In this document: piece by piece, positions 2,839 to 36,487 of the stretch
Layout: each line of letters begins with the position of its first letter
How positions within the stretch are numbered: position 1 is the stretch's first letter
DNA from: Bacteroides sp. AN502(2024)
GTDB lineage: Bacteria; Bacteroidota; Bacteroidia; Bacteroidales; Bacteroidaceae
Direction of reading: 5' to 3'
NCBI RefSeq assembly: GCF_041227145.1
Contig: NZ_JBGFSP010000003.1
Span: 2,108,001-2,172,000 of the forward strand
Length of the DNA: 64,000 bases
The notes under the pieces: generated by a model
Told to the model about the DNA's origin: nothing
The model's database searches: none
What the model saw: the letters and a program-made list of their open reading frames with translations, nothing else
Position numbers and translations under genes: made by a program

Positions 2839-2893
2839 GACTATTTTTTCATTCATTGGGACATATTTACTATCTTCCCGCTGTGATTTTGCG

Positions 2894-2901
2894 TACATTT
2901 G
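2894..2901 (+). promoter_or_regulatory. Bacteroides -7 box for HTCS-A
   Basis: TACATTTG is an exact TAnnTTTG match 36 bp upstream of the HTCS-A start codon. No copy of the operator motif found in front of operons A1 and A2 is present here, so HTCS-A is probably expressed at a steady low level. Confidence 0.4.
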
Positions 2902-5900: not shown

Positions 5901-6954
5901 AGTGAATGATGGTGTTATCATCCCGAATGAAATGAAAGAGGAAATCTTTAAACCTTTTGTTCGTTTCAATGAAAAAGAAGATGGTAAGGTTACTACAGGA
6001 ACAGGAATTGGATTAGCTCTTTCGCGTTCATTAGCTGAATTGCATCAGGGAAGTTTGATGATGTTGGAAGGTGAAGAGGCAAATGTTTTCTGTCTGTCAC
6101 TTCCTGTAAAGCAGGATAGTGTAATAAAGCTGACTTCAGAACATAAATCTGTGGAGGAGGGTAATATAGTGGATCGGCGAATGGGAATAATAGAGAGTAG
6201 AGGGGACAGACCGATAGTACTAGTAGTGGATGATAATCCGGATATGTTGTCTTTTATCGTTCGTCAATTGGAAGGTAATTATGCAGTTTTGACTGCCAAT
6301 GATGGGGTGGAAGCGTTGAAAGTATTGGATAATCAGGAGGTCATGCTGATAGTAAGTGATGTTGTTATGCCTCGTATGGATGGATTTGAATTGTGTAAGA
6401 TGATAAAATCTAAACTGGATTATAGCCATATTCCAGTGATTTTATTAACTGCTAAAACGAATATTCAATCGAAGATAGAAGGGCTGGAATTAGGGGCAGA
6501 TGCATATATTGAGAAACCTTTCTCTGTTGAGTATTTGCAGGCTTGTATCACTAATCTGATTAATAGTCGTGAGAAGTTGCGACAAGCTTTTGCACAATCT
6601 CCTTTTGTTACAGCTAATACGATGGCTTTGACAAAAGCTGATGAGGAGTTTATGAAAAAGTTGAATGAAATCATTCAGAATAATTTGCATAATCCGGATT
6701 TTAGTATGGATGATATAGTGGATTCTTTAAATATGAGTCGTTCTAATTTTTATAGGAAAATTAAAGGTGTACTTGATTTGAGTCCGAATGAATATTTACG
6801 GTTGGAAAGATTGAAACGGGCTGCCCAGTTATTGAAAGAGGGAAATGGGCGAGTAAATGAAATTTGTTATATGGTAGGCTTTAATTCTCCTTCTTATTTC
6901 TCTAAATGTTTTCAGAAGCAATTTGGAGTGCTCCCTAAGGAGTTTGCCGGTTAA
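2938..6954 (+). CDS. HTCS-A, hybrid two-component system sensor-regulator
   Basis: A 1338-residue one-protein signalling system. After a signal peptide (about 1-20) comes a long periplasmic part made of Reg_prop beta-propeller blades (repeated WIGT/GGLNRF motifs) and a Y_Y_Y domain ending near 780. One membrane helix (about 784-807) follows, then a histidine kinase with H843 in NVAHEIRTPLTL, an ATPase with a GTGIGLALSRSL box, a receiver domain with acceptor D1141 and acidic pair D1098/D1099, and a C-terminal AraC-type DNA-binding domain (about 1210-1338). HTCS proteins bind oligosaccharides in the periplasm and activate neighbouring susCD operons. Its targets are probably operons A1 and A2, which share an operator-like motif. 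It is full length with all signalling residues present. Confidence 0.95.
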   Translation: MKKIIITFISLIIGILSRAQTVNEHYYFKNLSSKNGLSQNTVSAILQDSKGFMWFGTKDGLDRYDGVSFRHFRYDRNNPRSLGNNFVTSLYEDIEGNIWVGTDVGVYIYYPEKDTFRHFVEQSDKNTRVERAVAMISGDSQGRVWIAAEAQNLFCYDLKKQTLRNYVLTDHPLVSTNVKCLTVDYSGTIWIGFYGDGLFYSEDDLKTLHPYLSPVDNEETFNNDVVSEILLGAYNCLYIGSLKGGVKELNLTSGRLRDLLLKDEDNESIYCRTLLFATDNELWIGTESGAYIYNLRTGKYTHLRSSEYDPYSLSDNAIYSFCKDREDGIWIGSYFGGVNYYPRLYTHFEKYYPKGEEKSLHGKRVREFCRDNYGVLWIGTEDGGLNRFNLNTKEFSFFAPSAGFTNIHGLCLVDDKLWVGTFSKGLKIIDTRTGTVLKSYQKNSSPRSLIDNSIFAICRTATGDIYLGTMFGLVRYNKQSDDFDHIPELNGKFVYDIKEDSGGNIWLATYANGAYCYDVNDRKWKNYVHDEKDTTSLPYNKVSSIFEDSYHRIWLTTQGGGFCLFHPESETFTSYNSTDGLPSDVVYQIVEDKDGQLWLTTNNGLVYFQPKTETMKVYTTANGLLGDQFNYRSSFEDENGMIYLGGIDGFIAFNPKNFSENKNLPTVVITDFLLFNKEVYAGEPNSPLEKNITFSDKIVLRADQNSFSFRISALGYQASGMNKLMYKLEGFDNEWLSIGESPLITYANLHYGDYVFRVKAANDNGVWNNNESLLSIRILPPFYLSIWACCIYILLIIGCSIYLILYLKRRSNRKHYRQMEKFEQEKEREIYYAKIDFFTNVAHEIRTPLTLINGPLENILLKKTVDPAIREDLNIMKQNAERLLSLTNQLLDFRKTESQGFRLNFAECNVTEILKETYNRFTSLARQRELDFVLNVVEQDFYAHVNKEAFIKIVSNLLNNAVKYAETYVYVFLEMNGIGEKSMFYIRTVNDGVIIPNEMKEEIFKPFVRFNEKEDGKVTTGTGIGLALSRSLAELHQGSLMMLEGEEANVFCLSLPVKQDSVIKLTSEHKSVEEGNIVDRRMGIIESRGDRPIVLVVDDNPDMLSFIVRQLEGNYAVLTANDGVEALKVLDNQEVMLIVSDVVMPRMDGFELCKMIKSKLDYSHIPVILLTAKTNIQSKIEGLELGADAYIEKPFSVEYLQACITNLINSREKLRQAFAQSPFVTANTMALTKADEEFMKKLNEIIQNNLHNPDFSMDDIVDSLNMSRSNFYRKIKGVLDLSPNEYLRLERLKRAAQLLKEGNGRVNEICYMVGFNSPSYFSKCFQKQFGVLPKEFAG

Positions 6955-7171: not shown

Positions 7172-7239
7172 TTTGAGACTGTATTGCGATTTATTGGGAT
7201 ATTTATTTTATCAGGAAATTCTTTCATCCGTTAATTTTG
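7172..7239 (+). promoter_or_regulatory. Operator and promoter of operon A1 (probable HTCS-A site)
   Basis: TTTGAGAC (7172-7179), six bases, then GCGATTTATTGGGAT and ATTTAT (7186-7206). A perfect -7 box TAATTTTG lies at 7232-7239, 25 bp after the motif. The same arrangement with the same spacing occurs at 14687-14754. The predicted transcript start is near 7245, which places the motif at roughly -73 to -39, a usual place for an AraC-type activator. An additional upstream element TGTTTCATTT (7124-7133) is also present before the second site, but at a different distance. Confidence 0.7.
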
Positions 7240-7457
7240 CCAATGTTAATCAATAGAAAATAATATGATAAAACAATTGCATCAATGAAAAACTTTTTAT
7301 TCTTTTCTTAGTTACTGCTGAAACAGTGGAAACCTGCATGAAGTAAAATCATACATTCTTTTGATAGAAGAATGAATATGGAAAATGTTCTGTCGTGATC
7401 TTTTTATTGATTGATGCCGGGAATGTTTATAATGAAATAACCTTTTTATTAATAATT

Positions 7458-10400
7458 ATGAGAACAAAAATGAAAGATCTAAGCGCATGCTTAAAAAGGC
7501 GGTTGTGGATTGTAGGTGTATGTCTGACAACCTTTTCTTTTCTTTCTGTATCTGTTGCATATGCCATTAGTGATAACGTGGCTGTTCAACAGCAAAAAAA
7601 AGGAATGATGATTAAAGGTAAGGTTTTGGGTACAGATGGTGAACCTATTATCGGTGCATCTGTATTCGTAAAAGGCTCTACTACTGGAGTTGTGACTGAT
7701 TTGGACGGTAACTATACACTGGCTAACGTTTCTAAAGGAGCCATTTTGGAATTTAGTTATGTAGGTTATGTAAAGCTGACTAAAACCGTAGGAAATGAAA
7801 CAACCATAAATGCGATTCTGTATGAGGATTCTCAGATATTGGAGGGAGTTGAAGTTGTGGCTTTTGGTACACAGAAAAAGGAGAGTGTTATTGGGGCTAT
7901 TTCAACTGTGAAAGTCGCAGAATTGAAAACGCCGTCCAGTAATCTTACGAATGCACTTGCAGGGCGCATTGCAGGAGTGATTTCTTATCAAAGAACAGGT
8001 GAACCGGGAGTGGATGACGCCTCTTTTTTTGTTCGTGGTGTTACGACTTTTGGATATAAAAAAGATCCGTTGATTTTGATTGATGGCATTGAGTTAACTT
8101 CTACTGATCTGGCTCGTTTGCAACCAGATGACATCGCCAGTTTTTCTATTATGAAAGATGCTACTGCTACCGCTCTTTACGGTGCCCGTGGTGCAAATGG
8201 TGTGATTTTGGTAAAAACCAAAGAAGGTCAGAAGGGAAAAGCACGGTTAAGTTTAAGAGTTGAAAATTCAATATCCACTCCGACTCAAGAAATAGAATTG
8301 GCAGATCCAGTTACTTATATGCGTCTGCACAATGAGGCCTATTTAACTCGTAATCCGTTGGCACCGTTGATGTATTCTGAGGAAAAAATAGACAATACTG
8401 TACCAGGGATGGGATCTGTAATTTATCCGGCTACGGATTGGAGAAAGGAATTATTGAAAGATTTTACGATGAACCAGCGTATCAACTTGAATATTACAGG
8501 TGGTGGTGATATCGCACGTTATTATGTGGCAGCTTCGTATAGTCAAGACAATGGTATTCTGGAGGTTGATAAGAACAGTAATTTTAATAATAATATCAAA
8601 CAGAGAGTTTATACTCTTCGTTCTAATGTAAATATCAACGCTACCAAAACAACAGAATTGATTGTCCGTCTAAGTGGTGTGTTCGATGATTATAACGGAC
8701 CGTTATATGGTGGTTCGGCTATGTACAATCTGATTATGAAGAGTAATCCGGTATTGTTTCCCGCCAAATATCCCAAAGATGAAGCTCATGCATACACGAA
8801 ACATACTTTATTTGGTAATGCTGAAAATGGACAATATTTGAATCCGTATGCAGAAATGGTAAGAGGATATAAAGAATCCGGACGTTCTAATTTGAGTGCG
8901 CAGTTTGAAGTGAAACAGGATCTGAAATTCTTGACGGAAGGTTTATCGGCACGTTTGTTGTTTAATACTTCCCGTATCTCCAGTTATGATGTTTCACGGA
9001 AACTGAATCCGTATTATTATAAGATGACTAATTATGATTATCTGACCGGTGATTATGCTATTGATATCATTAATCCGGATGACGGTTCGGAATATCTGAT
9101 TTATGATCCGGGTGGTAAGAGTATTACGGCCAATATGTATATAGAGGCTGCATTGAATTATAATCGTGATTTCGGAAAACATGGAGTAGGCGGATTATTA
9201 GTCTATCAATTGAGAAATAACCTTCAGCCGAATGCAGGCTCGCTTCAAGCATCTCTTCCTTACCGCAATGTCGGTTTATCAGGGCGTTTCACTTATGCAT
9301 ATAATAATCGTTATTTTGCAGAGTTCAACTTTGGTTATAATGGTTCCGAACGCTTCCATAAAAGTAAACGGTTCGGTTTCTTCCCTTCTGCCGGTTTGGC
9401 ATGGGTTATTTCTAATGAATCTTTTTGGAATCCATTTAAAAATGTAGTATCCAAGTTGAAATTGAGAGCGTCTTATGGTATTGTCGGTAATGATGCTATC
9501 GGAAGCGGGCGTTTCCTATATTTGTCAGATATCAATATGAATGATAGTAAGTATGGGGCAAACTTCGGATATAATTATGATTATCATCGGGATGGTATTT
9601 CGGTAAAGCGTTATTCTGATCCTGAAATTACATGGGAAAAGTCTGCTAAAACGAATTTTGCACTCGAGTTTACTCTATTTAATGATTTGAATGTAACAGC
9701 AGAGTATTATACGGAACGCCGTAAGAGTATTTTGCAGCAACGAACTTCGATCCCGGCATCCATGGGACTTTGGGTACAACCTTATGCAAACTTAGGAGAG
9801 GCCAAAGGGAACGGAATTGACTTATCGTTAGATTATAATAAGTATTTCGCCAATAAATCATGGTTACAACTGAGAGGTAACTTTACTTATGCGACAAGTG
9901 AATATATGGTATATGAGGATTATGAATATCCGGGAGCATGGTGGAAACAGAAAGTGGGTTATCCAACCAATCAGACTTGGGGATATATAGCAGAAGGTCT
10001 ATTTGTTGACGACAATGAAGTGGCTAATTCTCCTGTGCAATTTGGAGAATATGGTGCAGGTGATATTAAGTATCGTGATGTGAACAAAGATGGTAAGATT
10101 ACTGATCTCGACCAAGTACCTATCGGATATCCGAAAGAACCGGAAATTGTATATGGTTTTGGTGCCTCTTATGGATATAAGAATTGGGATATATCAGTGT
10201 TTTTTCAAGGGTTGGACAGAGAATCATTTTGGATTGACTATAATAATGTATCTCCATTTTTTAACACGGTTGATACAAAAGTTGTAGGTAATAGAGTTGG
10301 GCATAATGCACTTGCAAAGTTTATTGCAGATAGTCATTGGTCGGAGGATAATAGAAATGCTTATGCGGTATGGCCGAGATTAAGCCCGACTTCTATTGAG

Positions 10401-10652
10401 AATAACAGTAAAACGAGTACTTGGTTTATGCGTGATGGTTCGTTCTTGCGTTTAAAACAATTGGAGATTGGTTATACTATTCCGGAGAAAGTGACTAATA
10501 AAGTAGGAATCAAAAACCTTCGATTCTATGTTACAGGAAACAACCTATTATGTTTTAGTAAATTTAAACTTTGGGATCCTGAGATGGCTGGTTCCGGTTT
10601 AGGTTATCCTGTACAGCGTGTGTATAATATAGGACTAAATTTAACTTTCTAA
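7458..10652 (+). CDS. SusC1, TonB-dependent outer-membrane glycan importer
   Basis: A 1064-residue SusC/RagA-type transporter. A long N-terminal signal region is followed by a carboxypeptidase-D regulatory-like domain (GKVLGTDGEPIIGASVFVKG), a TonB box (EGVEVVAFG), a plug with LYGARGANGVILVKTK, and a 22-strand barrel ending in the expected aromatic residue (GLNLTF). It imports oligosaccharides together with SusD1, which starts 12 bp downstream. ATG 7458 (MRTKMKDL) is preferred over a GTG at 7395, because the longer form adds an unlikely hydrophobic extension before the signal peptide. The leader from the predicted start site is about 210 nt and holds a small hairpin (7354-7374). Confidence 0.93.
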   Translation: MRTKMKDLSACLKRRLWIVGVCLTTFSFLSVSVAYAISDNVAVQQQKKGMMIKGKVLGTDGEPIIGASVFVKGSTTGVVTDLDGNYTLANVSKGAILEFSYVGYVKLTKTVGNETTINAILYEDSQILEGVEVVAFGTQKKESVIGAISTVKVAELKTPSSNLTNALAGRIAGVISYQRTGEPGVDDASFFVRGVTTFGYKKDPLILIDGIELTSTDLARLQPDDIASFSIMKDATATALYGARGANGVILVKTKEGQKGKARLSLRVENSISTPTQEIELADPVTYMRLHNEAYLTRNPLAPLMYSEEKIDNTVPGMGSVIYPATDWRKELLKDFTMNQRINLNITGGGDIARYYVAASYSQDNGILEVDKNSNFNNNIKQRVYTLRSNVNINATKTTELIVRLSGVFDDYNGPLYGGSAMYNLIMKSNPVLFPAKYPKDEAHAYTKHTLFGNAENGQYLNPYAEMVRGYKESGRSNLSAQFEVKQDLKFLTEGLSARLLFNTSRISSYDVSRKLNPYYYKMTNYDYLTGDYAIDIINPDDGSEYLIYDPGGKSITANMYIEAALNYNRDFGKHGVGGLLVYQLRNNLQPNAGSLQASLPYRNVGLSGRFTYAYNNRYFAEFNFGYNGSERFHKSKRFGFFPSAGLAWVISNESFWNPFKNVVSKLKLRASYGIVGNDAIGSGRFLYLSDINMNDSKYGANFGYNYDYHRDGISVKRYSDPEITWEKSAKTNFALEFTLFNDLNVTAEYYTERRKSILQQRTSIPASMGLWVQPYANLGEAKGNGIDLSLDYNKYFANKSWLQLRGNFTYATSEYMVYEDYEYPGAWWKQKVGYPTNQTWGYIAEGLFVDDNEVANSPVQFGEYGAGDIKYRDVNKDGKITDLDQVPIGYPKEPEIVYGFGASYGYKNWDISVFFQGLDRESFWIDYNNVSPFFNTVDTKVVGNRVGHNALAKFIADSHWSEDNRNAYAVWPRLSPTSIENNSKTSTWFMRDGSFLRLKQLEIGYTIPEKVTNKVGIKNLRFYVTGNNLLCFSKFKLWDPEMAGSGLGYPVQRVYNIGLNLTF

Positions 10653-10664
10653 ATTTGATATAAA

Positions 10665-12587
10665 ATGAAAAAGATACAACTGTTTATATTAAATTGTTTG
10701 ATTATCGCTTTATCTTCATGTGATTCATTCTTGGATATCGTTCCGGATGATATTGCTACAATCGATAATGCATTTACAATGAGGGCACAGGCGGAGAAAT
10801 ATTTGTTTACCTGTTATTATTACCTTCCGGCTCATGGTCTGTTGGAGGCAAATCCGGCAATTGCCGGTGGTGACGAACTGTATATTACGGAGTCTTTTCG
10901 TAGTGCAGCACATGTACATGCATGGTATATTTCACATAATATGCAGAGTTCGGCAAGACCACGCTGTGATTATTGGACCGGAGCCGATCAACAGAATAAT
11001 AAATCATTGTATCAAGGAATCAGTGACTGTAATATCTTTCTGGAAAATATTCAGAAGGTACCTGATATGACACAAGCAGAGAAAGACCGTTGGGCGGCAG
11101 AAGTTCGTTTTTTGAAAGTTTATTATCATTATTGGCTGATTAGAATGTATGGACCAATTCCTATTATGGATCGGAATATTCCGGTAAATGCGAGCGAGGA
11201 TGAAGTAAAGGTTTTTAGAAGTACTATAGACGAATGTTTTGATTATGTAATCAATTCTTTAACTGAGATTATCAACAGCAACCATTTGCCTGATAAGATA
11301 ATGAATGAGGCTGAAGAGCTGGGACGAATAACTCAAGGAATTGCAATGGCAATAAAAGCCGAAGTGATGGTAACTGCTGCCAGTCCTTTATTTAATGGGA
11401 ATGCTGATTATAAAGGATATACTGATTCCAGAGGTATTGAACTATTCAATCCGAATAAGTCGGAACAGGCTAAAAAACAGCGTTGGATAGATGCTGCGGA
11501 AGCTTGTAGGCAGGCTATTGATTTTCTGAAAGCTCAAGGACATGATTTATATAAATATACTTCTCTTGAATACACGATATCCGATCAGACCCGTGCGAAA
11601 ATGAATATTCGTAACATTGTGACGGAAAAGTGGAATCAAGAAATTATTTGGGCTAATTCAAATAGTATTATTGGGCAGTTACAGGACCATGCTATTCCAC
11701 GTGGACTAGAACCCGGAAAAGAAGGAAATGCGAGTGTTGGTGGCAATTTGGCTGTTCCTCTTAAAATAGCAGATTTATTTTATACAAAAAATGGAGTTCC
11801 TATTACAGAAGATAAGACATGGAATTATGATGGGCGTTTTGAATTGAGAAAAGCAACTGCTAATGATAAGTACTTTATCAAGGAAGGGTATACAACAGCT
11901 AATCTGAATTTTGATAGAGAAGTGCGCTATTACGCAAGTTTAGGATTTGATGGTGCAGTCTGGTTCGGGCAGGGAGTGACAGATGAGACGAAGCCGATTT
12001 ATGTGCAATGTAAACAAGGACAGTCTGCTGCCAATCAGATTGCGAACTCATGGAATGAAACAGGTATATGGCCTAAAAAACTGGTTCATTTTAAGAGTGT
12101 GGTAGGGCAGACTAGCGGTTTTACTAAGATTACATATCCGTTTCCGGTGATGAGATTAGGCAATTTATATCTGTTGTATGCTGAAGCTTTGAATGAAAGT
12201 GGTGCTACTAAAACTGATGTTCTGACTTGGGTCGATTTGATCAGGGAAAGAGCAGGATTGAAAGGCGTAGAAGAAAGCTGGGATACATATACGAATAATA
12301 AGAAATATGAAACAATAGATGGCCGACGTGAGATTATACAACAAGAACGTGGAATTGAACTAGCATTTGAAGCACAGAGATTTTGGGATTTGCGCAGATG
12401 GAAATTGGCATTTCAGGAACAGAATAAGCCGATAACCGGATGGAATACTCAGTATAGTACAAATGAAGATTACTATACAGAACAATTGATTTATACCCAA
12501 GAGTTCAGAATAAGAAACTATTTCTGGCCGATTTTAGATAAGGAATTATATTCGAATAAAAACCTGGTACAGAATTATGGTTGGTAA
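10665..12587 (+). CDS. SusD1, surface glycan-binding lipoprotein
   Basis: A 640-residue SusD/RagB protein with a lipoprotein signal (LIIALSSC), the tetratricopeptide-rich N-terminal half (AEVRFLKVYYHYWLIRMYGPIPI) and the C-terminal signature RGIELAFEAQRFWDLRRWK. It forms the lid of the SusC1 transporter on the cell surface and captures the glycan. It lies 12 bp after susC1 and 19 bp before the next lipoprotein gene, so it is surely co-transcribed. The substrate cannot be read from the sequence. Confidence 0.93.
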   Translation: MKKIQLFILNCLIIALSSCDSFLDIVPDDIATIDNAFTMRAQAEKYLFTCYYYLPAHGLLEANPAIAGGDELYITESFRSAAHVHAWYISHNMQSSARPRCDYWTGADQQNNKSLYQGISDCNIFLENIQKVPDMTQAEKDRWAAEVRFLKVYYHYWLIRMYGPIPIMDRNIPVNASEDEVKVFRSTIDECFDYVINSLTEIINSNHLPDKIMNEAEELGRITQGIAMAIKAEVMVTAASPLFNGNADYKGYTDSRGIELFNPNKSEQAKKQRWIDAAEACRQAIDFLKAQGHDLYKYTSLEYTISDQTRAKMNIRNIVTEKWNQEIIWANSNSIIGQLQDHAIPRGLEPGKEGNASVGGNLAVPLKIADLFYTKNGVPITEDKTWNYDGRFELRKATANDKYFIKEGYTTANLNFDREVRYYASLGFDGAVWFGQGVTDETKPIYVQCKQGQSAANQIANSWNETGIWPKKLVHFKSVVGQTSGFTKITYPFPVMRLGNLYLLYAEALNESGATKTDVLTWVDLIRERAGLKGVEESWDTYTNNKKYETIDGRREIIQQERGIELAFEAQRFWDLRRWKLAFQEQNKPITGWNTQYSTNEDYYTEQLIYTQEFRIRNYFWPILDKELYSNKNLVQNYGW

Positions 12588-12606
12588 ACTTTAAAATAAA
12601 AACGTT

Positions 12607-13821
12607 ATGAAGAATAAATTTTATAAATATGGGTTGTTTTATATAGGAGTTGCTTTGACTGCTTGTGCCGACAATGCTGATCTGAACGAACCTGCGGGAA
12701 GTATGACACCACCGTCACAGGTGTTGAATGCAACGGTAAAGAATCTGTCTGGTGCAGCAATTATCTATTATGATTTGCCGGATGATCAAAATTTAAAATA
12801 TGTTCGGGCTAGCTATAAGGTTGATAATATGATTCGTACAGTTAATGCTTCTTTCTATACAGATTCTTTGGTAGTAGAAGGATTCCCTACTAAGGGAGAG
12901 TATGACGTTGAACTTTATTCTGTTAGTTACGGTGAGGCTGTATCTGCTCCGCTTGTGGTAAAAGTAAGTCCGGATACTCCTCCTTATCAAAAAGTGCGTG
13001 GAACATTAATGTCAGCTGAAACATTTGGTGGTATTAAAGTGAATTTTGATAACCCAGAAAAGGCTAAACTGGGACTGGGGGTCATAAAAAAACAAGCAGA
13101 AGGTATTTGGACACAGGTATATATGTATTATACTGAGGCTAAGGGAGGTGATTTTTATGTACGTGGTTTGGATGCTGTTACTACAGATTTTGGTATTTTT
13201 GTTAGAGATAGATGGGGGCATCTTTCAGATACATTGTATGTCACCGAGACTCCTTTGTATGAAGAACAATGCGATAAGTCTTTGTTCAGGAAGATGGCTT
13301 TACCGACTGACTCTTATGAGTGTCATTCGTGGAATGCAGTAACGAAAGGGAATGATATGACGCGGCTTTGGGATGGTATTACAGATACAGATCCTTGTTT
13401 TCAAACCAAGACGACAACAGTAATGCCACAGTGGTTTACTTTTGATATGGGGGAAAGGTATAAATTGAGCCGATTTGTGATGGTTTCACGTTATTATCCG
13501 GGTAAGTATGGTAATACATTTAAAGCAGGACATCCGAAGCATTTTGAACTTTGGGGTAGCAATAATCCAAATTCGGATGGTAGCTTTGATGATTCTTGGG
13601 TATTACTTTCTGAATATGAATCGGTGAAGCCTTCAGGTGGTGGTGTAAATGATGCTCTTACAGCAGAGGATCAGGAAGCCGCAAAAAATGGTGAGAATTT
13701 TATTATTCCCGATAATGCCCCGGCTGTACGTTATATTCGTTTTAAAACGAATGACACATGGGGGAGAACACGTTATATGCATCTTCACGAACTTACTTTT
13801 TTCGGTGCAAGGCATAATTAG
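12607..13821 (+). CDS. Surface lipoprotein with C-terminal discoidin-like (DUF5000) domain
   Basis: A 404-residue lipoprotein (signal ending LTAC). From memory the architecture is DUF4959, DUF5126 and DUF5000: two beta-sandwich modules, then an F5/8 type C-like domain from about residue 230 (WDGITDTDPCF, TFDMGERYKLSRFVMVSRYY, AVRYIRFKTNDTWG). Genes of this type often follow susD and are thought to be surface glycan-binding proteins that help SusCD hold the polymer. Discoidin-like folds usually bind galactose or uronic acid residues. It has no catalytic motifs. It lies in operon A1 between susD1 and a DUF4998 gene. Confidence 0.8.
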   Translation: MKNKFYKYGLFYIGVALTACADNADLNEPAGSMTPPSQVLNATVKNLSGAAIIYYDLPDDQNLKYVRASYKVDNMIRTVNASFYTDSLVVEGFPTKGEYDVELYSVSYGEAVSAPLVVKVSPDTPPYQKVRGTLMSAETFGGIKVNFDNPEKAKLGLGVIKKQAEGIWTQVYMYYTEAKGGDFYVRGLDAVTTDFGIFVRDRWGHLSDTLYVTETPLYEEQCDKSLFRKMALPTDSYECHSWNAVTKGNDMTRLWDGITDTDPCFQTKTTTVMPQWFTFDMGERYKLSRFVMVSRYYPGKYGNTFKAGHPKHFELWGSNNPNSDGSFDDSWVLLSEYESVKPSGGGVNDALTAEDQEAAKNGENFIIPDNAPAVRYIRFKTNDTWGRTRYMHLHELTFFGARHN

Positions 13822-13842
13822 TAACAAGTAAAAAATAATGCT

Positions 13843-14517
13843 ATGAGACTATTTAAAAAACTGATTTTTATATTTTTAAGTATAGGTACCTTGATCTCTT
13901 GTGATGGTATGGATGCCACGTATAAAGAGTTTATAGAAGAAGGACCTATTGTATATATTGGAAAAGTAGATTCATTGAAAGCTTATGCAGGACGTAATAG
14001 GGTTATGCTCGAATGGCAGAAATTACTTGATCCTCGTGCTAAAACGGCAAAAATATTTTGGGAAAACAGAACGAAGTCTACCGAATTACCATTGACAGAT
14101 AAAGCTGCTCTTACTCAAGTTGTAGTAGAGGATTTAGCGGAAGGTTCGTATGTCTTTGAAGTCTGTACATACGATACATATGGTAATTCTTCTATTATGT
14201 CGGAGGTTCCCTGTGCAGTGTATGGTGATGTTTATGAGAAATTGTTGTTCAATACAAAGGTAAAGACGGCGGTTTTAAAGAATAGTATATTGACTGTTAC
14301 TTTTGCAGCTTCGCTTGAACCAACTTACTTCGCTTCTGAAATCACTTATATGAGTTCTGAGGGGAAAAATAAAACTGTGCTTTTGAAAGCTCCCGCAACA
14401 CAGATGAAGATAGATGATTTTGTAGGAGATCATATTACTTATCGTTCTGTTTATTTGCCGGAAGAAGCGGCTATAGATTATTTTTATAGTGAGTTGGATA
14501 AGCTTGAAATCAATTAA
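13843..14517 (+). CDS. DUF4998 surface lipoprotein
   Basis: A 224-residue lipoprotein (signal ending LISC, then DGMDATYKEFIEEGPIVYIG). The YKEFxxxGPIxYxGK start followed by a fibronectin-like domain (NRVMLEWQKLLDPRAKTAKIFW) is typical of DUF4998 proteins, which accompany SusCD and DUF5000 lipoproteins. It is probably an accessory surface glycan-binding or spacer protein; its function is unproven. It is the last gene of operon A1, with an intrinsic terminator about 65 bp downstream. Confidence 0.8.
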   Translation: MRLFKKLIFIFLSIGTLISCDGMDATYKEFIEEGPIVYIGKVDSLKAYAGRNRVMLEWQKLLDPRAKTAKIFWENRTKSTELPLTDKAALTQVVVEDLAEGSYVFEVCTYDTYGNSSIMSEVPCAVYGDVYEKLLFNTKVKTAVLKNSILTVTFAASLEPTYFASEITYMSSEGKNKTVLLKAPATQMKIDDFVGDHITYRSVYLPEEAAIDYFYSELDKLEIN

Positions 14518-14580
14518 AAGAAATAATAGAGATAACAAAATAAATTTATAAGGTTATTTTTCTCACAATAGAATTATATG

Positions 14581-14636
14581 AAAGTCTTGTATCTTTTGTA
14601 ATAAAACTAATACTATAGATGGTACAAGGCTTTTTT
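14581..14636 (+). terminator. Intrinsic terminator of operon A1
   Basis: AAAGTCTTGTATC (14581-14593) pairs with GGTACAAGGCTTT (14621-14633), with two G-U pairs, and a T run reaches 14636. It separates operon A1 from the operon A2 promoter. Confidence 0.7.
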
Positions 14637-14686
14637 ATGTTATATCAATTATCCCATTCATGTTTCATTTGTCTATATCATTTTAC

Positions 14687-14754
14687 TTTGAGACATTTTT
14701 GTGATTTATTGGGATGTTTATATCATTTATATATTGTACAAACTTCTAATTTTG
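14687..14754 (+). promoter_or_regulatory. Operator and promoter of operon A2 (probable HTCS-A site)
   Basis: TTTGAGAC (14687-14694), six bases, then GTGATTTATTGGGAT and GTTTAT (14701-14721). TAATTTTG (14747-14754) follows after 25 bp, the same geometry as at 7172-7239. The predicted transcript start is near 14760, giving a leader of only about 30 nt. The upstream box TGTTTCATTT lies at 14661-14670, 26 bp before TTTGAGAC; at the A1 promoter that distance is 48 bp. Confidence 0.7.
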
Positions 14755-14792: not shown

Positions 14793-16607
14793 ATGATAAA
14801 ACAATTATTTTCAATAGGAATAGCTCTGTCATTATTTTCTCAAATGTTATGGGCGCAATGGACTCCTGCAGGAGATAGGATCAAAACTTCTTGGGCGGAG
14901 CAGATAGATGTGAATAATGTATTGCCGGAATATCCACGTCCTATTATGGAGCGTTCTGAGTGGTCTAATTTGAATGGTTTATGGAAGTATGCTGTTTTAC
15001 CATTAGGAAAATCAATTCCGGATTCTTTTGAAGGTGATATATTAGTGCCGTTTGCTGTCGAATCCAGTCTTTCGGGAGTTGGAAGAACATTGGGAGAAGA
15101 TAAAGAATTATGGTATCAGCGTGAGTTTGTTATACCCTCTAAATGGAAAGGAAAAAGAATTTTGCTTCATTTTGGAGCTGTTGATTGGAAAACTGAGGTA
15201 TGGGTTAACAATATCAAAGTAGGAGAACATACAGGAGGATTTACTCCGTTTACATTTGATATAACCCAGGCTTTGAAGAACTCAGAAAATAATTTAGTCG
15301 TCAAAGTGTGGGACCCGACAGAAAAAGGTACGCAGCCACGCGGGAAGCAAGTGAGTAATCCTCATGGTATCTGGTATACACCGGTGAGTGGTATCTGGCA
15401 GACTGTATGGTTGGAACCGGTGTCTGAACATTATATTACAAATATAAAAACAACACCTGACATAGATTTGAATAAGGTTAAAGTAAAGGTTGATACAGAT
15501 GACAATAGATATTCAGATAAATTTGAGGTAAAAGTGTTTGAAGGAGGGTGCCTGGTGGCTGTGGGAACGTCAATTAATGGGTTACCTGTTGAGGTTTCTA
15601 TGCCGACTGATGTCAAACTTTGGTCACCGGATGAACCATTCTTATATCAGATGGAAGTTTCTTTATTTGAGGGAGGAAAGCGAGTAGACTGTGTAAGGAG
15701 CTATATGGCGATGCGTAAGTACTCTATGAAAAGAGATAAAAAAGGCATTGTGCGTTTGCAATTAAACAATAAAGATCTGTTTCAATTTGGCCCGTTAGAT
15801 CAGGGTTGGTGGCCGGATGGATTATATACAGCTCCTACGGATGAGGCATTGTGTTATGATATCAAGAAAACGAAGGATATGGGTTTTAATATGATAAGAA
15901 AACATGTAAAAGTAGAGCCTGCACGTTGGTATACATACTGTGATCAGATGGGAGTAATTGTTTGGCAAGATATGCCTAATGGTGATAAAACCTTGGAGTG
16001 GCAGAGAAAGAAGTATTTTGATGGAATGGAACTGGCACGTTCTCCTGAATCTGAAGCTACTTATCGTAAGGAATGGAAAGAAATTATTGATTATCTCTAT
16101 TCTTATCCTTGTATTGGGACTTGGGTGCCCTTTAATGAGGCTTGGGGACAATTTAAGACAAGTGAGATTGCAGAATGGACCAAACAATATGACCCTACAC
16201 GTTTGGTCAATCCAGCAAGTGGTGGAAATCATTATACTTGCGGTGATATGCTTGATTTACATAATTATCCAGGGCCGGAAATGTATTTGTATGATGCACA
16301 ACGTGCTACGGTACTAGGAGAATATGGGGGGATTGGTTTAGTTTTGAAGAATCATCTTTGGGAACCCAATCGGAATTGGGGATATATCCAGTTTAATACA
16401 TTTATGGAAGCTACTGCTGAATATCTGAAGTATGCAGAAACACTGAAAGAATTGATAAAGCAAGGCTTTTCTGCAGCTGTTTACACACAAACGACAGATG
16501 TAGAAGTAGAAGTGAATGGACTGATGACTTATGACCGTAAAGTAATAAAGCTGGATGAAGTAGTATTAAAGAAGATCAATAATGAGATTTGCGAAACATT
16601 AAAATAA
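14793..16607 (+). CDS. GH2 family glycoside hydrolase
   Basis: A 604-residue secreted enzyme (signal peptide ending MLWAQ). It shows the GH2 order: jelly-roll sugar-binding domain (about 35-205, WYQREFVIPSKWKGKRILLHF), Ig-like domain (about 210-300), and TIM barrel. The acid/base is E449 in VPFNEAWGQF and the nucleophile is E510 in VLGEYGG. GH2 enzymes are retaining exo-hydrolases of beta-galactosides, beta-glucuronides, beta-galacturonides or alpha-L-arabinopyranosides; I cannot choose between these. It is the first gene of operon A2, 25 bp before a GH105 gene, so it should trim a non-reducing terminal sugar in the periplasm. Confidence 0.88.
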   Translation: MIKQLFSIGIALSLFSQMLWAQWTPAGDRIKTSWAEQIDVNNVLPEYPRPIMERSEWSNLNGLWKYAVLPLGKSIPDSFEGDILVPFAVESSLSGVGRTLGEDKELWYQREFVIPSKWKGKRILLHFGAVDWKTEVWVNNIKVGEHTGGFTPFTFDITQALKNSENNLVVKVWDPTEKGTQPRGKQVSNPHGIWYTPVSGIWQTVWLEPVSEHYITNIKTTPDIDLNKVKVKVDTDDNRYSDKFEVKVFEGGCLVAVGTSINGLPVEVSMPTDVKLWSPDEPFLYQMEVSLFEGGKRVDCVRSYMAMRKYSMKRDKKGIVRLQLNNKDLFQFGPLDQGWWPDGLYTAPTDEALCYDIKKTKDMGFNMIRKHVKVEPARWYTYCDQMGVIVWQDMPNGDKTLEWQRKKYFDGMELARSPESEATYRKEWKEIIDYLYSYPCIGTWVPFNEAWGQFKTSEIAEWTKQYDPTRLVNPASGGNHYTCGDMLDLHNYPGPEMYLYDAQRATVLGEYGGIGLVLKNHLWEPNRNWGYIQFNTFMEATAEYLKYAETLKELIKQGFSAAVYTQTTDVEVEVNGLMTYDRKVIKLDEVVLKKINNEICETLK

Positions 16608-16632
16608 CAAATATAGAGATTTTATATTTACC

Positions 16633-17709
16633 ATGAGAAAAATACTTATTTTGGTTTTTAGTCTTTTTTCGATATATTCTACAGTAGAAGCGAAAAGTAG
16701 GAAGGAACAAGATCGTGTGCTAATTGACAAAGTTGCCATGTGGCAGGTAAATCATCAGTCAAAGGTTAAACATCATGATTTGGCGTGGACAAACGGAGTT
16801 TTGTTCCGGGGGATGGTAGAATGGGCAGATTATACTCAAGACTCCCGTTATTATGATTTTCTGATGCAAATAGGGGGGAAACATCATTGGGGGTTCTTGA
16901 AACGCCTCTATCATGCGGACGATCTTGTTATAGCACAGATGTATATTCGTATGTATGAGAAATACCATGATCCTGCAATGATTCAGCCTACAATTGCTCG
17001 TGTAGATTCTGTCGTTGCTAAACCTTCGAAAGCCCGTTTGTGGCTCGGAGCAAAGAATTGGTCGGAACGTTGGTCGTGGTGTGATGCGTTATTTATGGCT
17101 CCACCAGTATACGGGTTGTTGAATAAGCTTTATCCGGAGAAAAACTATTTGGCATTTATGGATAGGGAATTTAAAGAAGCTACAGATTCTTTATATGATT
17201 CGGATGCTAAGTTATACTATCGTGATAGAAGATATATTCCCAAAAGAGAGAAGAATGGTAAGAAAGTATTTTGGGGAAGAGGTAATGGTTGGGTGTTTGC
17301 AGGAATACCTTTGTTATTGCAAACTTTGCCTAAAGATCATCCTACCTATAATTATTATCTGAACATTTATAAAGAAATGGCTTCTGCTATAGTTCAGTGT
17401 CAGGATAAGAATGGTTCTTGGCATGCCAGCATGCTTGATCCGGATTCATATCCTTCCCCAGAAAATAGTGCTTCCGGATTTTTTGTTTATGGTTTGGGCT
17501 GGGGAGTGAATCAAGGAATTTTGAAAGATAGAAAATATAAAAAAGCTGCCCGTAAGGGTTGGAAGGCTTTGAAAAGCTATGTTCATGAAGATGGCATGCT
17601 TGGATATGTTCAACCGGTTAGTGCTGCTCCTGAACAAGTGACTCAGAATATGACTGAGGTATATGGGGTTGGAGCATTCTTGATGGCAGGAATTGAGATG
17701 CTAAAATAG
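16633..17709 (+). CDS. GH105 unsaturated uronyl hydrolase
   Basis: A 358-residue (alpha/alpha)6-barrel enzyme with signal peptide. The signature SWCDALFMAPPVYG carries the catalytic aspartate (D151, equivalent to D143 of YteR), with HADDLVIAQMYIRMYE upstream and GRGNGWVFAG downstream. GH105 enzymes hydrate and release the 4,5-unsaturated uronic acid that lyases leave at the non-reducing end of rhamnogalacturonan or ulvan fragments. Its presence implies that a lyase feeds this pathway, yet none is recognisable in PUL A. Ends 30 bp before the susC2 reading frame. Confidence 0.9.
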   Translation: MRKILILVFSLFSIYSTVEAKSRKEQDRVLIDKVAMWQVNHQSKVKHHDLAWTNGVLFRGMVEWADYTQDSRYYDFLMQIGGKHHWGFLKRLYHADDLVIAQMYIRMYEKYHDPAMIQPTIARVDSVVAKPSKARLWLGAKNWSERWSWCDALFMAPPVYGLLNKLYPEKNYLAFMDREFKEATDSLYDSDAKLYYRDRRYIPKREKNGKKVFWGRGNGWVFAGIPLLLQTLPKDHPTYNYYLNIYKEMASAIVQCQDKNGSWHASMLDPDSYPSPENSASGFFVYGLGWGVNQGILKDRKYKKAARKGWKALKSYVHEDGMLGYVQPVSAAPEQVTQNMTEVYGVGAFLMAGIEMLK

Positions 17710-17757
17710 CCTTTTAATAATAAATTAAACTTATACGAAATGGAAAGACATTGTTTT

Positions 17758-20700
17758 ATGAAAGTGAGAATTTTATGGTTAATCGCTTTTTTGTCGTTTA
17801 CCATTCAACTGTTTGCTCAACAAAAAGTAACAGTGAAAGGTAAGATAACTGATGAACATAATGAGCCTGTTATTGGGGCTAATATAATGGAGAAAGGTAC
17901 AACGAATGGAGTTATTTCTGATTTTGACGGATTTTTTACTTTAAATGTGTCTTCCGGAGCTACTCTTGTTGTATCATATATAGGATTTGTTCAGCAAGAA
18001 ATTCCTGTCAAAGACAAACGTGATTTTGTGATTCGTTTGGCAGAAGACTCGGAAATTTTGAATGAAGTCGTTGTGATTGGCTATGGTAGTGCTCGTAAAA
18101 GAGACTTGACTGGTGCGGTAATGCAAGTAAAATCTGCACAGCTGGAAAATGAAAGTCCTTCCTCTATGCAAGATTTATTAAGAGCGAATGTTCCAGGATT
18201 GAGTGTTGGCTTTAGTGCAGGTCCCAAACCGGGTGGAAGTCTTTTGATTCGTGGAAAGAACTCAATTAATGCTGGAACTAATCCGTTGATTGTATTGGAT
18301 GGAGTTATATATCCGGGTGACTTGGCCGATATTAATCCGAATGATATAGAACAAATCGATGTGTTGAAGGATGCTAGTTCTGCTGCTATTTACGGAGCGC
18401 GTTCTGCTAGTGGAGTTATTATCATAACTACAAAGATGGGTAAAAGTGAAAAACCGACAATTAGTTTTGATGTTTCTATAGGTGTAGCTACTCAGGCTAT
18501 AGTTCCCGAAGTATATCAGGGAGATGAATTTACTGCTTGGAGGACGGATGTCTTTAATAGTGCAAATCCGAACCATAGGCCTTATGAATTTAATGACCCT
18601 CGTAAATTGCCCGCAGATATTTCTATTGAAGATTGGATGAAATATGATAATTCGACGGGAGATCCTGTAGAGACTTGGTTGCGTCGAATTGGCTTTAAAA
18701 ACTTGGAAATACAGAATTATTTGGATGGTAAATCTGTAGATTGGGCCGATATGGTTTTTCAGAATGCTCTTCGTCAGGATTATAATGCAAGTATCTCAGG
18801 AAAGACAAAAGGGGTAAATTATTATTGGTCTATGGGATGGACAGATAATGAGGGCATTATTGTAAATAACGGATATAAATCATTTAAGACTCGTTTAAAC
18901 TTGGATGCCAAAATAAGTAAGTTTTTGACTGTGGGATTAAATGCGCAATTTGTACAACGTGATGCCAGTGCTATTGGAGCGGATTGGGTTCAGTTCCAAA
19001 AACTGACCCCTTATGGAAGTCCTACCAATGAAGATGGATCAATGAAACTGAATCCGGGAGATGATACATCAGCGAAACATCCTTTGATCGATTCTTATTA
19101 TACAGATAAGAGAAATGTGATAAATAATTTGAATGCTAATATTTATGCTAAGGTGTCTTTGCCCTTTAATATATCTTATCAGATGAATTTCTCTCCACGA
19201 TATGAGTGGGCTACAGATTATGTACATAAATCCTCGGAACATCCAAGTTGGAAAGATTTTAGAGGTTCTGCCTCACGAACTTTTAGAAATGATTTTCTAT
19301 GGCAACTTGACAACATAGTAAAGTGGAAACAAACTTTCGCTAAAGTACATGACGTGGATTTCACTTTTTTATTTAATGCGGAGAAGTTTCAAAGATGGAG
19401 TGATGACATGAATAATGAAGGGTTTGATCCTAATGATGATCTTGGATATCATTATATGAAAGGTGGAATATTGCCTACAATTAGTAGTAATGATGAATAT
19501 AGAACCGGTGATGCATTGATGGCTCGTTTGTTTTATTCGTATGACAACCATTATATGATTACCAGTACAGTTCGGAGAGATGGTTATTCTGCATTTGGAC
19601 AAAAAAATCCTCGGGCGGTATTCCCCTCAGTTGCTGTCGGATGGGTATTCTCTGATGAGTCCTTTTTGAAGAAGTTAAATTGGTTGGATTATGGAAAGTT
19701 AAGATTTTCATGGGGATTAAATGGTAACAGAGACATTGGGGTTTATAGGGCTTTAGCCAGAATGGGTAATAGTAAATATATGTATGTAAGTCCGGATGGA
19801 AAGGTTTATAATGGGTCCTATCTATATGTGAATTCTTTGGCTAATAAAGAATTAAAATGGGAACATACGGCTTCATTCAACTTAGGATTGGATTTTTCTA
19901 TATTTAATGAACGATTAAAAGGAAATATCGATATTTATAAAGCTAACACGAAAGACCTTCTTATTGAGCGTACACTACCCGACTTGATCGGATTCAGTTC
20001 AGTGATGTCCAATTTAGGTGAAGTGGAGAATAAAGGTATTGAACTAAGCCTGACATCGAAGAATATTGATACAAAAAATTTTGCATGGAGTTCAACATTC
20101 AATTTTACTTTGAACAAAAATAAGATTGTTCACCTATACGGAGATATGGTTGATGTTTTAGATGAGAATGGGAACGTAGTAGGACAGAAAGAGGCTGACG
20201 ATATTAAGAATAAATGGTTTATAGGTAAGTCTTTGGATGAAATATGGGGATTAGAAGTTATTGGAGTTTGGCAGCAGGATGAAACGGAAGAAGCAAAAAA
20301 GTATGGTGTGGCTCCTGGTGATTTTAAGTTGAGGGATGTTGATGGAAACGGACAGTATACAGATGAGGATAAAGTATTCCAAGGGACAACTAGCCCGAAA
20401 TTTACATGGACATTGCGCAATGATTTCAAGATATATAAGAATATAGATGTTTCTTTCATGTTGTATTCTCTTTGGGGACATAAAGGTACATATGATGTAG
20501 CTAAGCATAGTGGAACCACGGTATATAATGATAGACAGAATGCTTACAAGTTACCATACTGGACTCCGGAAAATCCGACCAATGAGTGGGCAAGAATTGA
20601 TTCTAGTACAGGAGGAAACAGTTTCTCTGTGTATCGAAAAAAATCATTTATTCGATTGGATAATATATCTATCGGATACAATGTTCCATCACGTTGGATT

Positions 20701-20844
20701 ACTAAATTGGGATTAGGCTCATTGAGAGTTTATGCTAATGTAAGAAATGTAGCGGTTTGGGCTCCAGATTTTAAACTTTGGGATCCGGAAAATAGTAGTC
20801 CTACTCCTCGTACGTATACTTTTGGTATTAATGTGACTATGTAA
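17758..20844 (+). CDS. SusC2, TonB-dependent outer-membrane glycan importer
   Basis: A SusC-type transporter of 1028 residues from ATG 17758 (MKVRILWLIAF); an in-frame ATG at 17740 adds six residues. It has a carboxypeptidase-D-like domain (GKITDEHNEPVIGANIMEKG), a TonB box (LNEVVVIGYG), a plug with IYGARSASGVIIITTKMG, and a barrel ending in FGINVTM. It pairs with SusD2, 22 bp downstream. Its placement inside operon A2 rather than at its head is less usual, and gives this locus a second import route besides SusC1D1. Confidence 0.93.
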   Translation: MKVRILWLIAFLSFTIQLFAQQKVTVKGKITDEHNEPVIGANIMEKGTTNGVISDFDGFFTLNVSSGATLVVSYIGFVQQEIPVKDKRDFVIRLAEDSEILNEVVVIGYGSARKRDLTGAVMQVKSAQLENESPSSMQDLLRANVPGLSVGFSAGPKPGGSLLIRGKNSINAGTNPLIVLDGVIYPGDLADINPNDIEQIDVLKDASSAAIYGARSASGVIIITTKMGKSEKPTISFDVSIGVATQAIVPEVYQGDEFTAWRTDVFNSANPNHRPYEFNDPRKLPADISIEDWMKYDNSTGDPVETWLRRIGFKNLEIQNYLDGKSVDWADMVFQNALRQDYNASISGKTKGVNYYWSMGWTDNEGIIVNNGYKSFKTRLNLDAKISKFLTVGLNAQFVQRDASAIGADWVQFQKLTPYGSPTNEDGSMKLNPGDDTSAKHPLIDSYYTDKRNVINNLNANIYAKVSLPFNISYQMNFSPRYEWATDYVHKSSEHPSWKDFRGSASRTFRNDFLWQLDNIVKWKQTFAKVHDVDFTFLFNAEKFQRWSDDMNNEGFDPNDDLGYHYMKGGILPTISSNDEYRTGDALMARLFYSYDNHYMITSTVRRDGYSAFGQKNPRAVFPSVAVGWVFSDESFLKKLNWLDYGKLRFSWGLNGNRDIGVYRALARMGNSKYMYVSPDGKVYNGSYLYVNSLANKELKWEHTASFNLGLDFSIFNERLKGNIDIYKANTKDLLIERTLPDLIGFSSVMSNLGEVENKGIELSLTSKNIDTKNFAWSSTFNFTLNKNKIVHLYGDMVDVLDENGNVVGQKEADDIKNKWFIGKSLDEIWGLEVIGVWQQDETEEAKKYGVAPGDFKLRDVDGNGQYTDEDKVFQGTTSPKFTWTLRNDFKIYKNIDVSFMLYSLWGHKGTYDVAKHSGTTVYNDRQNAYKLPYWTPENPTNEWARIDSSTGGNSFSVYRKKSFIRLDNISIGYNVPSRWITKLGLGSLRVYANVRNVAVWAPDFKLWDPENSSPTPRTYTFGINVTM

Positions 20845-20866
20845 TTAACTTTTAAGAATTAATGTT

Positions 20867-22717
20867 ATGAATAATATTTGCAAATTAGTGATAATAGGAT
20901 CTGTTGCGATAACTCTCTCGAGTTGTGAGGACAGCTGGTTGGAACCTAAACCTCTTTCGTTTTATTCTCCGGAAAATACTCTGGTGGATGCTAAAGGTAT
21001 GTGGGCTGCACTTGGTACTTGTGAGAAAAGGATTAAAGCGGAGTTTTATGGAGATGGACCTGCCATTATTACTGAACATATTTTTTCTGAGGTAGCTATT
21101 GAAGGAACTACGGACAAAACAAGTGTTGCCCAAGATCTAAATGCGGTTATTACGCCTGATAAAAATTTGAATAGTCCTAATGCCAATAGAGTAGGATGGT
21201 ATTGGAATGAAGCGTATGATAATATTAGGTATGCTAATACTGTGATTACACGTATTGATGAAGCAACTTACTCGTCTGAACAGGAGAAGAACGAGATATT
21301 GGCTACTGCTTATTTCTTTAGAGCTTATCACTATTACCGTTTGATAAATCAATTTGGTGATGTGCCTTTACTATTGAAAGAATTTACAGAAGCGAAACTC
21401 GACTTTTATACAACGAAGCGTGAGGTTATTTTAAATAAAATGATAGATGATATGAAGTTTGCTTGTCAATGGATGCCTGAGGTGGTCGATAGAGGAAAAG
21501 CTCCACGTGCAGCAGGCTATCATTTGTTGGCTAAGTTATATTTGGCTGCCGGTTTGTTTGATGAAGCCATAACAGTAGCTACGGCTGTAATAAGTGATCC
21601 GCGTTATGAATTGATGAAAAATAGATTCGGAGCAGAAAAGGCTGATGCTACTAAAAATGTGATTTGGGATTTACATCGCCCTGAAAATAAGGCATTGGTA
21701 GAAAATAAAGAGACTATTTTGTTGGTTATTGACAGATATCTTGTAGAAGGAAGCCAAGGCGATGGAATTAGAACGATGAGAAATGCAGTTCCTTATTATG
21801 GAAATACGAAGAATGCTATATTAACTCCTGATGGTAAACAGGGAGTAACAGATAAAAAAGATCCCAAAGGAACAGTCAAAATTTCACTAGTTAAAAAGTA
21901 TGGACGTGGAATCGGACGCTGTCGGGGAACTGCTTATTCTACCCAGTATATTTGGGATGATCCGAATGATTTACGTCATGCAAAAGGAAATTGGATGAAT
22001 ATGGAGGATTTAATATATAATGAACCTAAGTTGGAAGGGAAAAATAAATATTATGGTAAACCTTTGCAGCTTTATGGAGAGACTGGACAGCTGTTGTGTA
22101 AAGATACAATTCGTAGTTGGTTTGGCTGGCCGCATTACAAGTTGTTTATACCGGATCCGGACAGAGTAGAACAACCGGAAGGTGGTAATACAGACTGGTA
22201 TGTATATCGTTTGGCGGAAACTTATTTGTTGCGTGCAGAGGCTTATTGTTGGAAAGGCGATGCTGCCAGTTTGCAGAAAGCGGCAGATGATGTGAATGAA
22301 GTAAGAAATAGAGCGGGTGCGGGTGATTTGGCGGCATCTGATGTGAATATTGGAACAATCTTGGATGAACGTGCGAGAGAGTTATATTATGAAGAACCTA
22401 GAAAAACAGAGTTGACTCGTATTGCTTATATTTTTGCACAAACGGGAAAACCCTCTTATACAGGTAAGGTCTATAAGATGGATAATTTCTCAGAAGATAA
22501 TTTCTTTTATGATAGAATTATGGAGTCTACCGATTTTTATAATAAAGGAGTTAAAACTATCTCTAATGTGGAATTTACAATGAGTCCGTATCATGTCTTA
22601 TGGCCTATTCCTGCATCTACGATTAATTCTAATACCAAAGGGCATATTAATCAGAATAAGGGATATGCAGGATCTGAAAATAATATTCCTCCTTTGGAAA
22701 CAATAGAAGCTAATTAA
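20867..22717 (+). CDS. SusD2, surface glycan-binding lipoprotein
   Basis: A 616-residue SusD/RagB lipoprotein (signal VAITLSSC, then [18 protein letters not shown]). The N-terminal helical repeats ([24 protein letters not shown]) and the C-terminal [20 protein letters not shown] region, a variant of the usual RxxELxxEGxRxxDLxRW motif, are clear. It caps SusC2. A perfect stem-loop lies immediately after its stop codon (22732-22768) and may set the ratio of transporter to enzyme mRNA. Confidence 0.92.
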
Positions 22718-22731
22718 TTTATTTAGATAAA

Positions 22732-22768
22732 ATCTCAGTATCTTTGGTGTGACTGAAGATACTGAGAT
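22732..22768 (+). promoter_or_regulatory. Perfect stem-loop between susD2 and the enzyme genes
   Basis: ATCTCAGTATCT (22732-22743) pairs exactly with AGATACTGAGAT (22757-22768) across a 13-nt loop. No T run follows, so it is more likely an mRNA 3'-end stabiliser, processing or attenuation element than a full terminator. A similar element follows susD3 (50894-50934). Confidence 0.6.
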
Positions 22769-22785
22769 CTAATAATTATAAAATT

Positions 22786-24024: not shown

Positions 24025-24035
24025 AATTAAATCTC

Positions 24036-24078
24036 GAAGGTATGTTCTATTTAAGCAAAAATAGCGCGACATACCTTC
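24036..24078 (+). promoter_or_regulatory. Intergenic stem-loop in operon A2
   Basis: GAAGGTATGT (24036-24045) pairs exactly with ACATACCTTC (24069-24078), and an inner CTATTT/AAATAG stem can form within the loop. There is no downstream T run. It lies 16 bp before the metallophosphoesterase start and could regulate mRNA stability or translation. Confidence 0.5.
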
Positions 24079-24094
24079 AAATGAGTTGAATATT

Positions 24095-25069: not shown

Positions 25070-25098
25070 TCTGGTTTTACATTCCAAAGGATATAGCC

Positions 25099-26529: not shown

Positions 26530-26546
26530 TTTTAAAGAATATATAA

Positions 26547-27755: not shown

Positions 27756-27769
27756 AAACTTCATTTTAA

Positions 27770-32404: not shown

Positions 32405-32409
32405 TAGAT

Positions 32410-36467: not shown

Positions 36468-36487
36468 CTATAATAAATGAATTTGTA

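Follow-up and report, generated by a model that had tools for sequence, protein, structure and literature searches.

Two operons that lie one behind the other in the genome of Bacteroides sp. AN502(2024) carry the same 35-bp element in front of them, and the question is which regulator this element serves and what that regulator switches on. We analysed it in a stretch of 64,000 nucleotides (the window, whose numbering is used below). A preliminary description had placed the element at 7172-7206 and 14687-14721, and sequence reading and a pattern search both return exactly these coordinates. The identical TAATTTTG does follow exactly 25 bp after the element at both copies (7232-7239, 14747-14754), and the gene next to the first copy does encode a hybrid two-component regulator (HTCS); this gene, HTCS-A (2938-6954), ends 217 bp 5' of copy 1. 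The features concerned are as follows.

2834..2868, plus strand: putative operator copy 3, half-sites 2834-2847 and 2855-2868, from a scan for operator-like sequence before TAnnTTTG
2894..2901, plus strand: TACATTTG, predicted -7 promoter box of HTCS-A, 25 bp 3' of the operator and 36 bp before the ATG
2938..6954, plus strand: HTCS-A, hybrid two-component regulator of 1338 aa with the Pfam domains Reg_prop, Y_Y_Y, HisKA, HATPase_c, Response_reg and HTH_18
7172..7206, plus strand: putative operator copy 1, half-sites 7172-7185 and 7193-7206, 21 bp apart
7232..7239, plus strand: TAATTTTG, -7 promoter box of the susC1 operon, predicted from sequence
7263..7308, plus strand: leader stretch resembling the GH2 gene start (14791-14840) by local alignment
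7395..14517, plus strand: susC1 operon, a probable operon by its close gene spacing
7395 onwards, plus strand: SusC1, susC1 operon; the reading frame opens with GTG at 7395, and the likely start is the ATG at 7458
10665-12587, plus strand: SusD1, susC1 operon
12607-13821, plus strand: DUF4959/5126/5000 protein, susC1 operon
13843-14517, plus strand: DUF4998 protein, susC1 operon
14572..14640, plus strand: terminator-like hairpin followed by a T-run, just 5' of operator copy 2
14687..14721, plus strand: putative operator copy 2, half-sites 14687-14700 and 14708-14721
14747..14754, plus strand: TAATTTTG, -7 promoter box of the enzyme operon, predicted from sequence
14793..37879, plus strand: enzyme operon of 23 kb, a probable operon by its close gene spacing

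The genes around these elements are a Bacteroides polysaccharide utilisation locus (PUL). By Pfam, the enzyme operon encodes a GH2 protein (14793-16607), a GH88/105-type protein, SusC2/SusD2, a DUF2264 protein, a metallophosphoesterase, a sulfatase, a second GH88-type protein, a GH43-GH106 fusion, a GH127 protein, an unclassified 679-aa protein (34428-36467) and an FAD oxidoreductase. Because GH127, GH43-GH106, GH2, two GH88-type proteins, DUF2264 and a sulfatase are among the products, the gene content weakly suggests that the substrate is a plant glycan containing arabinose, rhamnose and uronic acid. The hairpin at 14572-14640 is strong (-21.1 kcal/mol, z -6.1; equal stability in 0 of 200 shuffles), and its position between the operons together with the T-run fits two separate transcripts. 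Searches with Rfam (gathering scores) and for tRNAs gave no match within the window. An ISL3-type transposase is encoded at 1485-2468, upstream of HTCS-A. In the promoter region of a second PUL (56000-56065, minus strand), TATGTTTG is preceded by an inverted repeat of 11 bp, AAGTGTAAAAG..CTTTTACACTT; this repeat is unlike the HTCS-A operator, and the control of the second PUL may differ from the HTCS-A type.

The preliminary description had read the 35-bp element as two boxes. Both boxes are present, but rather than being separate they are better read as a direct repeat with a 21-bp period. Sites from relatives were collapsed to 18 non-redundant ones (less than 80% identical over 35 bp), and in this set the self-match of the operator at lag 21 averages 8.33/14, compared with at most 5.11/14 at every other lag from 14 to 35. 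The lag-21 peak is seen in the 63 unique sites as well as in the 18 non-redundant ones, in keeping with the direct repeats reported for HTCS operators (16 motifs, average 21 bp; PMC3878776). The half-sites, roughly TTTGAGACnnnnnT and ATTGGGATrTTTAT, are 14 bp each and lie 21 bp (about two helical turns) apart, with 15.0 and 17.2 bits of conservation per 14 columns in the 18 sites. The 7-bp stretch between them is conserved like the half-sites (8.5 bits over 7 columns), which a simple picture of two half-sites leaves unexplained. The 25-bp linker from the operator to the -7 box shows little conservation in the same 18 sites (9.9 bits over 25 columns), although its contrast with the half-sites is partly one of construction, as the search demanded the letters of both operator and -7 box.

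Judged by its letters, the TAATTTTG box is a Bacteroides -7 promoter element and not a separate operator box: TAnnTTTG is the -7 element of primary sigma factor promoters in Bacteroides (PMC7366714), and all three window sites carry it. The canonical TTTG around -33 is absent from the same three sites. In its place, directly after the operator, stand TTTATC, ATCATT and ACTATC, a partly conserved TnTATC-like sequence, and these promoters may well depend on an activator.

In its own genome (4,805,165 bases, 15 contigs) the 35-bp pattern has two exact matches (reversed control, 0) and, with up to 3 mismatches and without the -7 box, no further match. With the -7 box required and up to 3 mismatches allowed, exactly 3 sites are found, all in this PUL (reversed control, 0). 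Many copies at genes unrelated to PULs, which the preliminary description had named as evidence that would speak against its proposal, were thus searched for and did not appear. Across the genus, sites occur in 33 of 149 genomes and number 70 (up to 2 mismatches; no match in the reversed control). A protein search of the same genomes gave an orthologue of HTCS-A in 36 (identity no lower than 59%), among the matches listed and with at most 4 candidates scored per genome, so that short orthologue fragments could be missed; two of the 36 have fragments only. Among these listed matches, site and orthologue occur together in 31 genomes, the orthologue alone in 5, the site alone in 2 (G095 and G120) and neither in 111 (Fisher P 1.9e-24, ignoring relatedness). 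Two of the genomes with the orthologue alone have a related site, at 26 bp in G054 and a weaker one by matrix in G043, and a matrix scan found none at HTCS-A in G026, G100 and G108. As many as 66 of the 70 sites share a contig with an HTCS-A orthologue and lie within 49,227 bp of it, the other 4 being on contigs that lack one. All three promoters are also found in G146, the nearest relative, and outside the genus there is 1 site, in 1 of 279 genomes (family-wide sample of 301, up to 1 mismatch). The putative operator therefore stands before PUL operons and is conserved together with its HTCS orthologue, as would be expected of an HTCS operator.

The third copy, which the preliminary description had missed, lies in front of HTCS-A itself; 25 bp 3' of it comes TACATTTG, and then 36 bp to the start codon. 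Its letters differ from those of the two PUL sites. It is found at the same place in 9 of 9 Bacteroides orthologous loci (L003-L011, out of 11 loci) and is absent from both Prevotella loci (L012, L013). Six of the nine loci were not used in building the scoring matrix, and the weakest scores among the nine are 16.9 (L010) and 30.8 (L009). When ten upstream regions are aligned, the best conserved block runs from the operator through the -7 box; directly upstream, the sequence of L008, L009 and L010 is unrelated and the operator is still kept, and that of L006 diverges only about 70 bp further up. In L003, L004, L005, L007 and L011 the first bases of the operator contain the stop codon of an open frame some 700 codons long, and in the window the same stop, inside the HTCS-A operator, ends a 52-codon frame. 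This stop codon may explain why the self copy has AATARGAC instead of TTTGAGAC. The sequence at about 2705-2838 matches the 3' end of a gene that several relatives carry upstream of HTCS-A. Across 34 orthologue entries (31 distinct proteins), 27 have an operator at their own gene, with upstream matrix scores of at least 30 in 24 and 17.6 to 27.7 in 3, positive scores being partly circular, as many of those sites built the matrix. The other 7 have no site at HTCS-A itself (G003, G050, G026, G100, G108, G041 and the second copy in G127), so that feedback through this site would not be universal.

We re-tested the spacing with a search of the 149 genomes for the operator alone (at most 1 mismatch, -7 box not required). 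This gave 51 sites in 23 genomes (reversed control, 2), and TAnnTTTG follows at 25 bp in 48 of them, at 24 bp in one and at 26 bp in another; a site in G110 has no TAnnTTTG within 60 bp. The 51 sites are not independent, because many are the same promoter in related species. A general rule of a 21-bp repeat plus 25 bp was not seen in this genome: in 20 regions that surround its other HTCSs, the 65 TAnnTTTG boxes between genes show no excess of 21-bp repeats at that distance. Among 218 same-region promoter pairs, drawn from these 20 regions and the window, 5 reach 18/35 in register, and every other offset gives between 0 and 2. Three of these 5 come from the sites of the window itself, one is in L228, and one, in L223, resembles two opposed, overlapping promoters. 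The L228 pair lies beside another HTCS, with its -7 boxes near 11882 and 13536; the two promoters have another operator sequence in common (22/35), set in the same register to TATCTTTG. L141 and L142 (HTCSs of 54% identity) have a direct repeat, TTTGACTnATAmGT / TTTGACyTTATTGT, of 21 bp and about 25 bp before TATTTTTG; with such repeats of other letters, the rule may hold for some HTCSs.

An HTCS-A orthologue lies downstream of 26 of the 70 sites, a GH2 orthologue (75-100% identity to 14793-16607) of 6, an orthologue of the reading frame at 34428 of 8, a SusC (35-100% identity) of 5 and weakly GH2-like proteins (20-22%) of another 5; the remaining 20 precede other genes, 15 of which match none of the 20 window proteins compared. 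The frame at 34428 lies deep within the second operon in the window, and in eight other promoters an operator stands before its orthologue, which marks it as a recurrent member of the predicted HTCS-A regulon. That the operator tracks PUL members despite changed operon order is the best evidence that it is itself kept by selection. The 679-aa protein encoded at 34428-36467 has many relatives (6517 matches among 7995 scored) and no Pfam, NCBIfam or PDB match; named relatives are few among the 120 listed and are called hypothetical, and the protein is a candidate for an unclassified enzyme family. In G106 (L117), an operator of the self-regulatory type precedes, in place of an HTCS, an open frame of 292 aa that encodes an AraC-type domain.

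A further box, TGTTTCATTT, had been noted upstream of both PUL copies. It does occur at 7124-7133 and 14661-14670, and its gaps to the operator, 38 and 16 bp, differ by 22 bp as claimed, but its reading as a conserved element with helical-turn spacing does not hold across species: in 67 of the 70 operator sites the 120 bp upstream lack it, and the 3 sites that bear it are the two in the window and one in G146, where the susC1 copy of the box has one base changed. A third TGTTTCATTT lies on the minus strand inside susC1 (7793-7802), and the 3 occurrences in the window compare with 0.49 expected (0 of 100 shuffles reach 3).

The flanks of the two PUL sites were described as otherwise different. 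This is so for the 150-bp 5' flanks, which match no better than chance (P 0.076), but not for the leaders: 7263-7308 and 14791-14840 align with a local score of 35 against a mean of 17.3 in 500 two-base-block shuffles, none of which reaches it, and the match (about 50 bp, including the GH2 gene start) contains 16 identical bases, ATATGATAAAACAATT. The leader at 7263..7308 is a possible relic of promoter duplication, and with leaders so alike the two promoters may share descent in this way. The likeness of the two operators, which had been taken as a sign of selection, is on its own no proof of it; conservation across species is the stronger argument.

HTCS-A carries a propeller, a histidine kinase, a receiver and an AraC-type DNA-binding domain in a single chain by Pfam, with periplasmic and membrane placement predicted, and so has the domains of an HTCS. 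It retains the kinase His motif, the receiver Asp region and the SHIP motif. S/CHIP marks inhibition relieved by phosphorylation, and HTCS receiver-DNA-binding fragments show phosphorylation-dependent binding to PUL promoters (PMC11253607). Of the 34 orthologue entries, 33 have RSNFYRK or RSSFYRK as their first recognition helix. A set of 20 HTCSs with 50-54% identity has RSSLNRK there in 15 members and the site in none (best matrix score -1.9 in the 322 to 400 bp upstream), and as NFYRK is kept in 3 of them, the first helix alone does not predict the operator.

Taken together, we hold with high confidence that the element would be the operator of HTCS-A, from which a phosphorylated dimer would activate its own gene and the two operons of the PUL. 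The dimer would sense an oligosaccharide through its periplasmic propeller, and the kinase would phosphorylate the fused receiver domain, freeing the two AraC-type DNA-binding domains to dock next to each other, one on each half-site. The end of the operator, 25 bp before TAnnTTTG, would abut the place of the -33 element, and the docked domains would recruit the primary sigma factor at a promoter with a poor -33 element. HTCS-A could thus turn on the susC1 operon, the 23-kb enzyme operon and, via the third site, itself, as positive feedback; one sensor would probably switch on the whole sugar-degrading locus together with its own gene. As the preliminary description had proposed, shared control of the two operons by HTCS-A is, on the sequence evidence, the best-supported reading. 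The sequence itself, the repeat geometry, the nearly fixed spacing, the uniqueness in the genome, the conservation and the linkage to HTCS-A orthologues are its observed basis, and from them we infer that HTCS-A binds the sites, that it is phosphorylated, that it activates and does not repress, and what the feedback sign and the ligand would be. A more far-reaching version, to which we give only tentative weight, is a lineage-conserved self-amplifying switch in which contact between the tethered HTCS dimer and RNA polymerase would hold the 25 bp and feedback would give an all-or-none PUL response.

Another regulator of the genome, whether a different HTCS or an AraC-type protein, might bind the sites and have HTCS-A merely as a target. 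Candidates exist, as the genome has 22 places with a Y_Y_Y domain (the one in L230 gave no alignment), the HTCS in L211 shares 11/12 first-recognition-helix residues with HTCS-A, and the self-type operator in G106 precedes a frame with an AraC-type domain. However, the sites track HTCS-A orthologues across the genus, 66 of 70 within 50 kb, and 0 of 20 other HTCSs of the genome share both HTCS-A recognition helices (L212 being compared in the first only), which makes this improbable. Still less credible, to the point that we give it hardly any weight, is that the two PUL promoters are alike through copying only and the operator is non-functional. The matching leaders 3' of the -7 boxes would fit a copy, as would the same three promoters in G146, yet the operator recurs before unrelated genes in many species at a nearly fixed distance of 25 bp, across a linker that is little conserved.

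The self site raises a different doubt, namely that HTCS-A may repress its own gene and hold its level constant by negative feedback. HTCS genes are typically constitutive with low expression (PMC6874557), and the letters of the self site differ from those of the PUL sites. Nevertheless, the self site is positioned relative to its -7 box as the PUL sites are, which fits activation, and results with BT0366 suggest that this HTCS raises its own transcription (PMC5061871). We therefore consider self-repression unlikely, though the least so of these three alternatives, and prefer activation of the PUL operons and of HTCS-A by HTCS-A itself.

If this activation reading is correct, the predicted operator is letter-precise for one HTCS clade of the genus Bacteroides, and its motif is a ready test of the gene set under one sensor. 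It would also offer a clean case for measuring where a membrane-tethered regulator is placed relative to a Bacteroides promoter. From the conserved self site one would predict that positive feedback exists here naturally; in B. thetaiotaomicron others have engineered such a circuit for higher output (PMC6874557). A self-amplifying switch, if true, would be unlike the usual HTCS genes, which are constitutive at a low level. In the accessible literature on HTCS binding sites, autoregulation and promoter spacing, including PMC12125979, we found no report of the HTCS-A operator.

The shared element is real, and its reading as the HTCS-A operator is well supported and fits a type of control that is already known. 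At E. coli araBAD, the direct half-sites I1-I2 of AraC lie 21 bp apart and abut the -35 region, and AraC is a soluble arabinose sensor acting at a sigma-70 promoter. The HTCS-A half-sites have the same 21-bp direct arrangement, whereas HTCS-A is a predicted membrane-bound kinase working with a Bacteroides sigma factor. Closer at hand, the HTCS operators of B. thetaiotaomicron (Ravcheev et al., 2013; PMC3878776) are the same kind of direct repeat, of about 21 bp, before PUL operons adjoining the HTCS gene. The HTCS-A system differs in that the distance to the -7 box was measured over 51 sites and is nearly fixed, a spacing that the accessible passage of that paper does not give, and in that the HTCS-A gene itself bears a site; the likeness is one of architecture. 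In the arabinan regulon of BT0366 (HTCS_Ara-1), one HTCS activates two operons of its PUL (PMC5061871; PMC3878776). BT0366 is a regulator other than HTCS-A, and the likeness is one of regulon; activation of its own gene, which its authors suggest from a 15-fold rise in mRNA (PMC5061871), provides a precedent for a self-regulating HTCS.
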